From a virus: a stretch of 28,091 nt of DNA. The notes under the pieces were generated by a model. It saw only the letters and a list, made by a program, of their open reading frames with translations, was not told where the DNA came from and did not search any database. The stretch spans positions 1 to 28,091 of the IMG/VR virus record IMGVR_UViG_3300029266_000300; one strand, written 5' to 3'. Positions 3,032 to 12,362 of the stretch are shown one piece after another. Position numbers and translations under genes: made by a program. Each line of letters starts with the position of its first letter. Within the stretch, counting starts at the first letter, position 1.

Positions 3032-3715
3032 TCATTTGATATTATGCATGTCTCGCCAGTGGTTCCAAGTGACAGCCTGCACTTGGCAGCCTGTTATGGC
3101 ACGGCTGGGTGGACCTTGTTCAATTTCATTTATCACTTCTGCAGCGCAGCAATAAGCATCAGCTATCTTGTAATATTCTTTTTTAGTTATGCTGCTTTTG
3201 GTGCTGCTTAGACTGTGGCGTTCTCCATAGTATATATTTTTGGCGTGACCATCGACACAAACTGAATTAATGCCCCTTAAATAATCTGGTTGTCCTGCAT
3301 ATCTTATACAGTCATAAAAGGCTTTTGTTTTTAATCCGTTTAGTATTGTTCTGGTTGCTTCTGTTTCCTGTTCTAAGTTTTCACAGTCTAGCTGTAGTAT
3401 ATCAATAGTTTTGTGTTTGTTGTTGTTATAGGTTGATACTTTTATATCTAACAGATTAGCTCCTGCGCTGTAGCCCTGCGCCATATGTTCGGCATCAATA
3501 ACATTTTTGGGCCATTTGTTATTGGGCGATAGTCCACTAGCTGCGCCAATAACCCTCTCAACATTTAAACCAGATTTGACTGCAATGGCATCAAATGTTT
3601 TGTAGGCTATGTTATACCATTGCTTGCCATATTGTTTGGTTGCTTCTGGTGCCGAATAATACACACCTAAAATATTAAGTGCCGACAGCCTGCGCTGTAG
3701 TTCGCCATGTTCCAT
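3032..3715 (-). CDS. DUF7178-like phage protein (227 aa)
   Basis: AAGGA lies 8 bases before the ATG. Motifs in order are GAASGLSPNNKWPKNVIDAE (about 57-76), VSTYNNNKHKTIDIL, LNGLKTKAFYDCI, SVCVDGHAKNIYYG, EYYKIADAYCCAA, and QAVTWNHWRD near the C-terminus. This order (LSPNNxW.N..DA, TYxxNKxKA, L.G.KT..FY, VDxHA, YR.IA.AY, QA.TW..WR) is one I know from a family of uncharacterised phage and plasmid proteins now called DUF7178. The spacing of helices and the invariant Asp-x-His-Ala invite comparison with helix-hairpin-helix nucleases or glycosylases, but I cannot support a reaction. It is the first gene of the leftward unit, 5' to the 71-aa, DUF932 and 48-aa genes. Confidence 0.65.
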   Translation of the reverse strand: MEHGELQRRLSALNILGVYYSAPEATKQYGKQWYNIAYKTFDAIAVKSGLNVERVIGAASGLSPNNKWPKNVIDAEHMAQGYSAGANLLDIKVSTYNNNKHKTIDILQLDCENLEQETEATRTILNGLKTKAFYDCIRYAGQPDYLRGINSVCVDGHAKNIYYGERHSLSSTKSSITKKEYYKIADAYCCAAEVINEIEQGPPSRAITGCQVQAVTWNHWRDMHNIK

Positions 3716-7298: not shown

Positions 7299-8063
7299 AT
7301 GACCTATGCTGAACAATTAGATATCATAAAGGCTATCCCTGTAAGAGAAGGTGAGAGCAAAGTAATCCAATGCCCATTCTGTTATGGGCTGAAGAAACTA
7401 GCATTGTCTAAGTTTGACGGTAAGATCATGTGGAACTGCTACAGAGCTAGTTGTAACGGTAAGGGTATATATTCTGGTAAGCGTAGTGCTGAAGCAGTTA
7501 AAAACTATTTAGAGGACAGTGTAGGGGTTAGACGGCCTAAGTATAGGTCTATGCCTACAGTTACTGCATCAGTATACAATCACATAGAGTGTCTGAACTT
7601 TCTAGAGTTATGTAACAGCCTACACGCATACGAAAGAGGATACATACAGGTTAAGTACGCTCCTGCTGAAGACAGGGTGCTGTTCTATACAGGTACGGGT
7701 GCTGTGGGTAGATTACTCTCAGGCTCTGGGCCTAAGTGGATCAGCTATGGTGAGTTGCCTACTGGTGTACATGTCGGCGTAGGTTCGACAGCCGTGCTGG
7801 TTGAAGATGTACCAAGTGCATGTAGTGTTAGTAGGATAGATGGTATGGTCGGTGTTGCCTTACTAGGCACAACTATCACTGCAGGCATCAAGAGTACTCT
7901 CTCAGAGTATGACAACTGTTATTTGATACTGGACAAGGACGCATCAGTTAAATCTTTAAAGCAAAGTAAAAGTATAAGTCGTAGCATTAAAGTTCGTTTT
8001 ACCTCAGAAGATTTAAAATACTTGACTACGGACAAAATACAGGACTTAATGCACATCAGCTAA
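7299..8063 (+). CDS. DNA primase: zinc ribbon plus TOPRIM-like domain
   Basis: Cys25-x2-Cys28 (QCPFCYG) and Cys47-x4-Cys52 (NCYRASCNG) form a zinc-binding motif that in primases recognises the template. The TOPRIM-like core follows: Glu169 in AVLVEDVPSA and Asp212-x-Asp214 in CYLILDKDAS, the metal-binding acidic residues. At 254 residues it is a stand-alone primase, unlike T7 gp4 where primase and helicase are fused; the helicase is the next gene. An upstream ATG at 7293 is out of frame. It should synthesise RNA primers at the fork. The role is well supported by motifs and position. Confidence 0.82.
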   Translation: MTYAEQLDIIKAIPVREGESKVIQCPFCYGLKKLALSKFDGKIMWNCYRASCNGKGIYSGKRSAEAVKNYLEDSVGVRRPKYRSMPTVTASVYNHIECLNFLELCNSLHAYERGYIQVKYAPAEDRVLFYTGTGAVGRLLSGSGPKWISYGELPTGVHVGVGSTAVLVEDVPSACSVSRIDGMVGVALLGTTITAGIKSTLSEYDNCYLILDKDASVKSLKQSKSISRSIKVRFTSEDLKYLTTDKIQDLMHIS

Positions 8064-8099: not shown

Positions 8100-9317
8100 A
8101 TGGACCATTCACTACTCAAGAATTTACTAGAACATGAGTTCTACTTAAAGAACAAAGCCAAGCTACGTGCATCTCTCTTTGATGATACCGTGCTGGAAGT
8201 CTACGAAGCCATAACATCATCCCACGATAAGTTTGGTATAGATATATCTCCTGTAGAATTGTTTGCACACTGGAAGTCTACTCATCCTACTGCTACCACC
8301 TCATGGGCTGCAGAGGTTGAAGACCTTGTTGGGTGTATATCTAGTGCAGAAAACATATCAGACGCTATCGCAACAGATGTCATAGAGAATTTGTGGCGTC
8401 AGAGCGTAGGACTAGACATAGCTAACTTAGGTTTGTTGATGTCTGAGGGTGAAGTAGCTGCAATGGACCGTCTTAACACACTCCTTGATAGGGTGTCTGA
8501 TGGATATCTTCCTGATGACTTTGACTCCGCGATAGAGAGTGATGATATCTATGCTCTGCTTGCAGTCACTAGTAATGACAATCGCTATAAGTTTAACATA
8601 GAAACCTTGAGCCGCCACGTCTACGGCATTGGTGCTGGAGAGTTTGGATGCATCGCAGCATACTCTAACGTGGGTAAGACTGCACTGGCTGTTAGCCTGT
8701 GTGCTGGTCCTGCAGGCTTCTGCCAACAGGGTGCGAAGGTTGCATACATATGTAACGAAGAGATAGCCAAGAGAACCAAACTACGTGCTATAGGTTCTTA
8801 CACAGGTATGACCCGTGAAGAGATAGACCTAGACCCCGCTGCAGCCGCAGCCAGATACTCTGGTATTAAAGACAGACTTATCTTTGTTGATGCACAGGGC
8901 TGGGATATGCAGATGTTAGAGGGTTTCCTTAATAAAGAGAAGCCTGACATATGTATGATTGATATGGCTGACAAGATAGAACTGAATGGTACTTTCAACT
9001 CAGGTCACGAAAGACTGCGAGAGTTATACTATAGAATAAGAGAGTGTGCTAAAAAATATAATTGCGCTATCCTAGGAAATTCTCAGTGCAGTGCAGAGGC
9101 TGAAGGCAAGACCCGTATCACTATGTCCATGATGGAAGGCTCTAAGGTTGGTAAGGCTGCAGAGAGTGATATCATGCTGGGCATCGGACGTATAAATTCT
9201 GGAGAGGATGATAACGATCCTAGCCGTTGGATCACAGTAATGAAGAATAAAATTAGTGGGTGGCATGGTACTGTGCAGTGCAACCTTGAGGCAGAGGTAA
9301 ACCGTTATGTTGTTTAG
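8100..9317 (+). CDS. Replicative DNA helicase, SF4 (DnaB/gp4-like)
   Basis: The RecA-type ATPase core lies in residues about 170-405. It has Walker A AAYSNVGKT (186-194), a glutamate-bearing ICNEE after the next strand, Walker B ICMIDMAD (284-291), a GNSQ sensor (326-329) and the conserved SMMEGSKVGKAAESDIMLGI (343-362). The N-terminal 165 residues are helical and could hold the primase-interacting domain. AAGGA lies 8 bases before the ATG, in a copy of the CCAACTAAGGA leader; another ATG at 8096 is out of frame. It should unwind the fork as a hexamer. Its end overlaps the polymerase start. Confidence 0.88.
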   Translation: MDHSLLKNLLEHEFYLKNKAKLRASLFDDTVLEVYEAITSSHDKFGIDISPVELFAHWKSTHPTATTSWAAEVEDLVGCISSAENISDAIATDVIENLWRQSVGLDIANLGLLMSEGEVAAMDRLNTLLDRVSDGYLPDDFDSAIESDDIYALLAVTSNDNRYKFNIETLSRHVYGIGAGEFGCIAAYSNVGKTALAVSLCAGPAGFCQQGAKVAYICNEEIAKRTKLRAIGSYTGMTREEIDLDPAAAAARYSGIKDRLIFVDAQGWDMQMLEGFLNKEKPDICMIDMADKIELNGTFNSGHERLRELYYRIRECAKKYNCAILGNSQCSAEAEGKTRITMSMMEGSKVGKAAESDIMLGIGRINSGEDDNDPSRWITVMKNKISGWHGTVQCNLEAEVNRYVV

Positions 9318-11475
9318 TCCTGACCAAGAGGTATTGATTGCTGACTTGGAGACCACTGTGGAGTTCTTCACTGATGGCAGGCGTCCTGATAATAGTCCAT
9401 TTAATCCGGTTAACCGTTGTGTATCCGCACACTGGGGTTGGCTGGGTTGGGATACCTTAGATGATTACACCTACAGTATCTTTCATCACAACGAACATCC
9501 TAAGTCTGACAGCCCAGAGGCATTCCAAGCTGCGCTGTACAAGGCTAAGATTGTAGTGTTCCATAATGCTAAGTTTGACGTGCAGTGGTTACTAGAGATG
9601 GGCTTTGTAATCCCAGACACTCTGAAGATTTACTGCAGCATGATAGCAGAGTTTATACTGCAGAAGAGCCAGAGAAATCCTGTGTCATTAAAGATGTCTG
9701 CAGAACGTAGAAATCTGTCTAACCAGAAAAAGACTGATCTTGTAGATGATCTGTTTAAGTCTGGCGTAGGTTTTGAGGCTATGGACCTTACTACTATGCT
9801 AGAGTACGCAGAGGCTGATATCCGCACTACTGCAGAGCTTTACCTAAAACAGCAGAATGATTTAGCATCTGAAGAGAATAAGTCTCTCTTGCCTGTAGTA
9901 GATCATATGGCTGACATGCTACTGTTCCTAGTAGAGATTGAGCGCAACGGTGCATACATAGACTTAGACGTGCTTAAACAGGTGGAGACAGACTTCCTTA
10001 ATGAGAAGATTGAGTTGACCCATCGTCTGAATGAGATAGTCGAACAGATCATGGGAGACACGCCTATAAATCTAAATTCTGGGGATGATATGACAAAAGT
10101 TATATACTCCAGACGGGTTAGAGATAAGCCTATGCATAAGTTGACGTTTAACATTGGTACTAATGAGGCAGGTAAGGCTCTACGTCCACCGCGCATGACA
10201 CCCTCACAGTTTAACTCTGCAGTACGCACCACCACTGACGTTGTATACAGGACAGATGCTGTGTGCTGCCCCGACTGTTCGGGCGAAGGCTCTATCCAGA
10301 AGTTTAAGACTGTAACCAAGATAAAGTTAGGTAAGAAGTATCGTGTCACAGGAGAACCCTATAAGAACCGCACTAAGTGTAAGGTTTGTAAGGGCATAGG
10401 TGCTATCTATCAGTCCAACGGACTAGTGGCAGGACTAAAGATGATACCAGAGTCAGCCTTCGATGCATCTATGGGTGGGTTTAAGACTGACAAGGAAACT
10501 ATTAAGAGGATGATTGCTACAGCAGAGGCTAAAAACAAGACTACGGCTGTTGAGTTCCTAACTAAGATAAGTCGCTTGAATGCAATAACTACCTACCTTG
10601 ATAGTTTTGTAGCAGGCATACAGAAAGGTACGAGATCAGATGGAATACTTCATGCAAACTTCAATCAGTGCGTTGCTGCAACTGGGCGTCTGTCTTCTAG
10701 CGGTCCTAATCTACAAAACCAACCTAAGCGTGGCTTCCCTGTACGGTCTGCTTTTGTCAGCCGCTTTGATGGCGGTTTTCTGGTCGAAGCAGATTATAGT
10801 GGCCTAGAATTTAGAACGTGTGTTGAGCTATCTAGGGACGCACAGGGATTGTCTGACATATTAGGCGGTAAAGACATCCATCGTCAGACTGCTAGTATAA
10901 TAGAACAGAAGCCACCAGAAGATGTGAGTAAGTCTGAACGTCAGAGGGCCAAGGCATTCAGTTTTTTGCCTCTTTTTGGCGGCACGTCTTTCGGTCACCC
11001 GCCTCACATTGCTGCGTATCTGGATGGTTTCTACGACATCTATCAGGGTATAAACGGATGGCATGACCAGCTAATGACCTCTGCATTAAAGACAGGGATC
11101 GTACAGACGCCCTCTGGCAGACAGTACTTCTGGCCTAATGTTGTGCGTACTAAGAAAGGTAGGGTATCCAATGCCACACAAATATTAAATTACCCTGTCC
11201 AAGGCTTTGCTGCAGACACTGTACAGTTAGCCTGCATACGGGCGCACCGTCTGTTTAAGCAGCATAAACTAAAGAGTAAGCTTATTTTGACTGTACACGA
11301 TTCAATCGTGGTTGACTGTACTAAAGAGGAATTTGAACAGGTTAAGACTATTCTTCATACAGCTATGGTAGATGTACATGAGGAAATAGAAGCTAGGTTT
11401 AACTACAAGTGTGTAGTCCCTTTCGACATAGAGATAAGTGTAGGAAGTAATTGGCTAGACCAGACGGAAATATAG
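9307..11475 (+). CDS. polA: Family A DNA polymerase with DnaJ-type zinc insertion
   Basis: The N-terminal 3'-5' exonuclease has LIADLETT (Asp13, Glu15), FHNAKFD (to Asp91) and YAEAD (to Asp171). The polymerase domain has motif A VEADYSGLEFR (Asp496), motif B RQRAKAFSFLPLFG (Arg545, Lys549, Phe553) and motif C LTVHDSIVVD (His664, Asp665). Between them, CPDCSGEG (321-328) and CKVCKGIG (358-365) are two exact CxxCxGxG repeats, the DnaJ central zinc-binding motif. This arrangement is what I recall of HMO-2011-like phages. Phe553 aligns with E. coli Pol I Phe762; the Tyr766 equivalent is Phe557. It is the replicative polymerase. It overlaps the helicase gene by 11 bases. Confidence 0.95.
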   Translation: MLFSPDQEVLIADLETTVEFFTDGRRPDNSPFNPVNRCVSAHWGWLGWDTLDDYTYSIFHHNEHPKSDSPEAFQAALYKAKIVVFHNAKFDVQWLLEMGFVIPDTLKIYCSMIAEFILQKSQRNPVSLKMSAERRNLSNQKKTDLVDDLFKSGVGFEAMDLTTMLEYAEADIRTTAELYLKQQNDLASEENKSLLPVVDHMADMLLFLVEIERNGAYIDLDVLKQVETDFLNEKIELTHRLNEIVEQIMGDTPINLNSGDDMTKVIYSRRVRDKPMHKLTFNIGTNEAGKALRPPRMTPSQFNSAVRTTTDVVYRTDAVCCPDCSGEGSIQKFKTVTKIKLGKKYRVTGEPYKNRTKCKVCKGIGAIYQSNGLVAGLKMIPESAFDASMGGFKTDKETIKRMIATAEAKNKTTAVEFLTKISRLNAITTYLDSFVAGIQKGTRSDGILHANFNQCVAATGRLSSSGPNLQNQPKRGFPVRSAFVSRFDGGFLVEADYSGLEFRTCVELSRDAQGLSDILGGKDIHRQTASIIEQKPPEDVSKSERQRAKAFSFLPLFGGTSFGHPPHIAAYLDGFYDIYQGINGWHDQLMTSALKTGIVQTPSGRQYFWPNVVRTKKGRVSNATQILNYPVQGFAADTVQLACIRAHRLFKQHKLKSKLILTVHDSIVVDCTKEEFEQVKTILHTAMVDVHEEIEARFNYKCVVPFDIEISVGSNWLDQTEI

Positions 11476-11531: not shown

Positions 11532-12362
11532 ATGTCTGATATCATACCCGTAGAAGGCGGTCTGAGCCTACAAGAAATGGCTGCAGAACTGGGCGCATCT
11601 TCCGCTCCCAAGGGACCAAAAATCCCCGCTTTGAAGATTAATTCTCAGGGCGAAGACAGAGATGGAAATCAAATTCCATTGGGCGCTTTTTTCTTAAATG
11701 TAGATGGCGTGAGAGCCTATGCTAAAGAGGGCGTTAAGATTCGTCCTTTATCAAATCATATCCAGTACATGCACTGGGGTGATGGAGTACTAATAAATAA
11801 GTCACGTCTTATTAAGAATGCGCGTGAAGAGGCCAGAGATCAGTTAGGCGGTCTACAATGTAGTATGCCTTCTTATGAAACCTCTATCAGCATGACACCT
11901 CAACAGCGCGAAGAGTATATAGGTCGCGACAGGTATCGTATTGTACGCGCACTGTGTAGCTACGAAGGCACTACAGCCAGCGGTGAAGCCGTTACGGTTG
12001 AGAACCAGCCTTGTATATTGTCTCTGAAGCGTAAGAATTACGGACCTTTCTATCACGATGTCCTTAATCGTTTACCTGCTGATACTAACATGTTTGACTT
12101 TGAGAGCGTGTTAACTGCTGAGAAGCATAAGACTGACAAGGGTGCTGTGTATTATGTTATGCGCTTTGCCCCCCAGTTTACCAACAAGCTTCCTCTGGAC
12201 CAGATGACTTACGACAGCCTGTCTGCTGTAGTTGCTATGGTTAAGTCAGAGAACCAGAAGATTGATGATAAACACTTTGAAGCTTTAGATCGTAAGAACG
12301 ATGAAGTTGAACAAGATAGGATCATGGATGAAGTAAATACTCTTGAGGGTGACTTCAGCTAA
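11532..12362 (+). CDS. Hypothetical protein (276 aa), possible ssDNA-binding protein
   Basis: GGAG lies 8 bases before the ATG, downstream of the best promoter in the window, so high expression is expected. The N-terminus is Ala/Pro-rich (ASSAPKGPKIPALK). The middle mixes short beta-prone segments with many aromatic and basic residues (RIVRALCSYEG, CILSLKRKNYGPFYHD), and the C-terminus is acidic (DEVNTLEGDFS). An acidic tail, high expression and a place between the polymerase and a RecE-like exonuclease are the features of a phage ssDNA-binding or strand-annealing protein. No OB-fold signature can be proven by eye, so the role is a hypothesis; the gene itself is certain. Confidence 0.85.
   Translation: MSDIIPVEGGLSLQEMAAELGASSAPKGPKIPALKINSQGEDRDGNQIPLGAFFLNVDGVRAYAKEGVKIRPLSNHIQYMHWGDGVLINKSRLIKNAREEARDQLGGLQCSMPSYETSISMTPQQREEYIGRDRYRIVRALCSYEGTTASGEAVTVENQPCILSLKRKNYGPFYHDVLNRLPADTNMFDFESVLTAEKHKTDKGAVYYVMRFAPQFTNKLPLDQMTYDSLSAVVAMVKSENQKIDDKHFEALDRKNDEVEQDRIMDEVNTLEGDFS

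Follow-up and report, generated by a model that had tools for sequence, protein, structure and literature searches.

The family A DNA polymerase encoded in the window, by which we mean the whole 28,091-nucleotide stretch of IMG/VR record IMGVR_UViG_3300029266_000300 analyzed here, carries two exact CxxCxGxG motifs in a basic insert that alignment places in the thumb, and on balance we lean toward a reading in which a single structural zinc would pin a basic thumb ribbon that holds duplex DNA, raising both affinity and dwell time. The module itself has already been published; the present analysis adds the invariance of its four cysteines in 221 of 221 distinct polymerases (among the matches listed), a predicted ribbon fold, the thumb location, and the charge.

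In the available parts of the HMO-2011-type literature (PMC9038755, PMC6918029, PMC8528129), the polymerases of this group are described as having a partial DnaJ central domain with two CXXCXGXG motifs between the exonuclease and polymerase domains, a trait that serves as the group criterion, and a functional test of the domain was not found in those parts. The GenBank record of HMO-2011 likewise assigns Pfam PF00684 to its polymerase. The window polymerase has the exonuclease and the two motifs between the domains, as the criterion in PMC9038755 is worded, and its motif pair is flanked by DNA_pol_A_exo1 (aa 71-186) and DNA_pol_A (aa 391-717). It is 62.7% identical to the polymerase of Roseobacter phage CRP-738 and 37% identical to that of HMO-2011, and an AlphaFold2 model of the whole polymerase superposed on Bst Pol I with a Z of 35.8 over 549 residues. 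The window phage is a marine, HMO-2011-type phage whose polymerase fits that known group; it shares with the group the same gene, the two motifs between the domains, and apparently the same replication neighborhood, and differs in sequence divergence and in a hairpin 12 aa longer, which CRP-738 also has.

TABLE 1 Features of the polymerase region and their coordinates in the window
Feature	Coordinates	Strand	Basis
Helicase	8100-9317		Pfam, PHROG
Family A DNA polymerase, 3'-5' exonuclease + polymerase, 722 aa	9307..11475	+	Pfam PF01612, PF00476; phrog_17
Thumb insert, aa 296-378: helix, outer strands, two putative zinc knuckles, inner hairpin	10192..10440	+	AlphaFold2
First knuckle CPDCSGEG, aa 321-328	10267..10290	+	exact CxxCxGxG motif
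Basic beta-hairpin, aa 329-357, with 12-aa extension	10291..10377	+	charge, knuckle spacing
Second knuckle CKVCKGIG, aa 358-365	10378..10401	+	exact CxxCxGxG motif
276-aa protein directly downstream, acidic C-terminal tail; candidate partner	11532..12362	+	

Gene neighbors matched those in CRP-738 and comprised a helicase, an exonuclease, DUF3310, a pyrophosphohydrolase, and ribonucleotide reductase. An ORF at 7299-8063 occupies the position of the CRP-738 primase; it had no Pfam or PHROG match and starts with a CPFC...C stretch resembling a zinc ribbon. Elsewhere in the window, a 2OG-Fe(II) oxygenase-like protein (PF13640, 5988-6521) lies between a tyrosine integrase and ThyX, and a DUF7178 protein (E = 2.9e-31, 3032-3715, minus strand) is encoded upstream of the early genes. 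The protein encoded next to the polymerase on its downstream side is generally about 280 aa long, with an acidic tail reminiscent of phage single-stranded-DNA-binding proteins.

A sequence-only reading of this DNA had reported an exact CPDCSGEG/CKVCKGIG pair in a family A polymerase at 10255-10420, and both motifs were confirmed within that interval. Chance can be rejected as the origin of the pair because none of 200,000 shuffled versions of the polymerase contained at least two CxxCxGxG motifs, while 131 contained at least one. The Pfam model PF00684 (DnaJ_CXXCXGXG) scored below threshold on the whole 722-aa protein (E = 0.13) and matched all 22 of 22 inserts when these were searched in isolation, with E values up to 1 and a best value of 1.4e-8.

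Conservation was assessed across the window polymerase and 220 others, all distinct, that came from IMG/VR, phage records, and GTDB contigs; the survey drew on the 80 top-scoring matches per scan, and the most remote members may be absent from it. Among these matches, C321, C324, C358, and C361 were invariant (221/221), as were G349 and G365 and, in the polymerase proper, the catalytic Asp and Lys, D496 and K549. G326 was present in 220 and G328 in 213 of the 221 listed sequences, and G363 was variable (124/221). Poor conservation of the cysteines in relatives, which had been named beforehand as one of two findings that would refute the interpretation, is thus ruled out among the matches listed. 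Some phage contigs in the collection were probably binned wrongly: identical HMO-2011-type contigs (L136/L137 and L140/L141) occurred under the unrelated Flavobacteriales TMED123 and Neomarinimicrobiota MED589 MAGs, and L139 lay in a Euryarchaeota bin.

AlphaFold2 modeled the whole polymerase from 73 sequences with a pLDDT of 91.5 and a pTM of 0.84, and the isolated 83-aa insert with a pLDDT of 87.2 and the same strands. The predicted strands (full numbering 314-320, 333-340, 343-351, and 366-374) are laid out almost symmetrically about residue 342, a layout that points to a single long ribbon of two strands with the knuckles as interruptions. The knuckles would therefore oppose each other if the ribbon register, which we infer from the strand layout, holds: symmetric pairing (i+j of about 684) should place C321 and C324 opposite residues 363 and 360, so that all four cysteines converge. 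A fold that kept the cysteines apart had been proposed as a ground for abandoning the zinc site, and the predicted ribbon points the other way.

A Foldseek search with the 83-aa fragment returned nothing significant, the best hit (E = 1.0) being a DnaJ. VIA-align comparison against 270 chains gave 13 at a Z of at least 2, represented by 11 entries that were all CxxCxGxG proteins: DnaJA2 (4.1), BSD2 (3.5), anti-TRAP (3.3 and 3.0), DnaJ (3.0), DnaJA3 (2.6), and UvrA chains (3.2 to 2.2). This list appears specific although the Z values are low, with a maximum of 4.1. A profile of the insert found repeats 2 and 3 of DnaJ 1exk as its best PDB match (E = 4e-6; 0.0023 for the best single stretch), and the earlier description of the repeats as DnaJ type is upheld. 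Like the central zinc domain of DnaJ/Hsp40 (PF00684; 1exk), the insert has neighboring CxxCxGxG knuckles with a hairpin between them, at a VIA-align Z of no more than 4.1. Unlike that domain, which has four repeats and two zinc sites, the window polymerase has exactly two repeats, inside its thumb, and one zinc site is therefore expected, as the sequence-only reading anticipated. The C-terminal zinc finger of UvrA (9gxk 718-779; Z = 3.2 over 46 residues) is, like the predicted module, a zinc ribbon of a DNA-handling enzyme, but the similarity is weak and that finger sits in an ABC ATPase and regulates damage-specific binding (PMC5053424).

Sequence alignment placed the insert after the NLNS helix and before a helix beginning FKTDK, the counterpart of the STS helix of bacterial enzymes. 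The corresponding stretch of Taq is a loop that spans residues 499 to 513 approximately and includes Glu507; the module thus appears, in an alignment that spans a large insertion, to lie in the thumb and to replace the Taq Glu507 loop. A position between exonuclease and palm had been proposed for it, which stands as far as the two flanking Pfam domains are concerned and is here refined to the interior of the thumb. T7 gp5 also has a thumb insertion in a phage family A polymerase, its thioredoxin-binding domain, but gp5 lacks a CxxC motif. The FNPSS motif of gp5 is at aa 334 and we take the thioredoxin-binding insertion to precede it; for T7, which MAFFT misaligns around its insert, the arrangement was established by inspecting the sequence. 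An insertion before the NxSS thumb helix was not what we found in the window polymerase, whose insert follows NLNS, and the view that its location differs from that of the T7 insertion was borne out. The Taq loop is, by alignment, at the same thumb place and gains DNA affinity from added positive charge (PMC4132270), but it is short (about 15 residues) and zinc-free. In Taq, the distance between E507 and a primer phosphate is 3.8 A, and the E507K substitution lowered the Kd from 102 to 1.1 nM, a rise in DNA affinity of about 90-fold, with no gain in processivity (PMC4132270).

The hairpin between the knuckles (aa 329-357) was strongly basic: its net charge averaged +5.2 and varied from +2 to +11, where the composition of the whole protein would predict 0.08, and positions 332, 334, 353, and 357 were K or R in 88-94%. 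Knuckle spacing among the matches listed was 17 aa in 204 of 221 polymerases and 29 aa in the other 17. All 17 with the longer spacing fell inside a clade of 19 (support, 0.959), two members of which lacked the long hairpin, and the 12-aa extension is for this reason a subclade trait of the window polymerase.

In a FastTree phylogeny computed without the insert, all 22 sampled polymerases with the putative zinc module, HMO-2011 and its relatives included, formed one clade (support, 0.948), and the earlier assignment of the window to that group agrees with both this clade and the motif arrangement. The clade was nested among other phage polymerases, several of which (Quill_5.2, ICP2, QDWS535, PPWS2, RHph_N37, and relatives) carried at the same point an insert that lacks a CxxC pair and often contains a GKNxGExKTK-like stretch; almost no insert was present there in VpV262 and StenR_269. 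Inserts of the no-CxxC kind at this thumb position were also seen in L106, L108-L135, L099, L101, L102, and L104, many with a conserved SGKNxGExKTK stretch. Profile alignment with 16 Autographiviridae-type polymerases (650 columns) paired the two kinds of hairpin only weakly, and common descent of the putative zinc inserts and the Cys-less ones therefore stays a suggestion from sequence comparison.

One DnaJ-repeat-type zinc site would, as we picture it, pin a long basic beta-ribbon of the thumb at its midpoint and make it rigid. The ribbon would stand in for the Glu507 loop, which in Taq lies against the primer strand some six or seven nucleotides back from the 3' end, and the lysines of the ribbon may grip the duplex leaving the active site, giving the enzyme more affinity for, and a longer dwell time on, primed DNA. 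Because the ribbon is basic and occupies a thumb loop that in Taq adjoins DNA, template holding is the most likely role, rather than that of a chaperone, and the strong charge together with the DNA-adjacent place favors direct DNA contact first and a partner second. Among the points that temper this reading, acidic protein tails are another possible ligand of a basic surface, and in Taq the E507K change raised affinity and not processivity (PMC4132270).

The main rival, which we regard as unlikely but worth keeping in mind, is that the ribbon serves to dock a partner in phage replication, such as the acidic tail of the downstream protein. The acidic tails of gp2.5 and of gp4 bind to basic patches on T7 polymerase, and docking here would be analogous. 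The last 20 aa of the downstream 276-aa protein carry a charge of -7, and across about 70 loci the downstream ORFs of at least 180 aa mostly ended in negative tails (usually -3 to -11) beside polymerases whose ribbon averages +6.4. However, acidic tails are common and were absent in a few loci (L056, L065, L068, and L084), and the 276-aa protein matched no family or PDB entry, including the single-stranded-DNA-binding families.

Alternatively, the module might only stabilize the fold, with zinc taking the place of hydrophobic packing in a thumb insert otherwise devoid of function. The other kinds of insert at the same point in phage cousins, and the near absence of any in VpV262 and StenR_269, would fit such a role, but the hairpin lysines are 88-94% conserved although needless for zinc binding and cysteine loss occurred in 0 of 221 sequences among the matches listed, and we judge it improbable. 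The part that DnaJ plays in lambda replication, mentioned in PMC9038755, raises the further possibility that the module mimics DnaJ and recruits the host DnaK/Hsp70 machine or binds unfolded clients; in its favor, the DnaJ zinc repeats are nearest among solved structures in sequence and fold. A Pfam scan of the 722-aa protein found no J domain (HPD motif); with this domain and two of the four repeats missing, DnaK recruitment is very improbable. The same module also occurs in UvrA, anti-TRAP, and BSD2, which to our knowledge are not DnaK co-chaperones.

If the zinc-pinned ribbon does act as a built-in duplex holder, it might, and we offer this tentatively, spare these phages a thioredoxin-type processivity factor. 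HMO-2011-type phages are reported to be widespread in the ocean and dominant there (PMC9038755). With their module located in what would be a DNA-contacting loop of the thumb, a trait that serves to recognize the family leads to a testable hypothesis on how the polymerase holds DNA.
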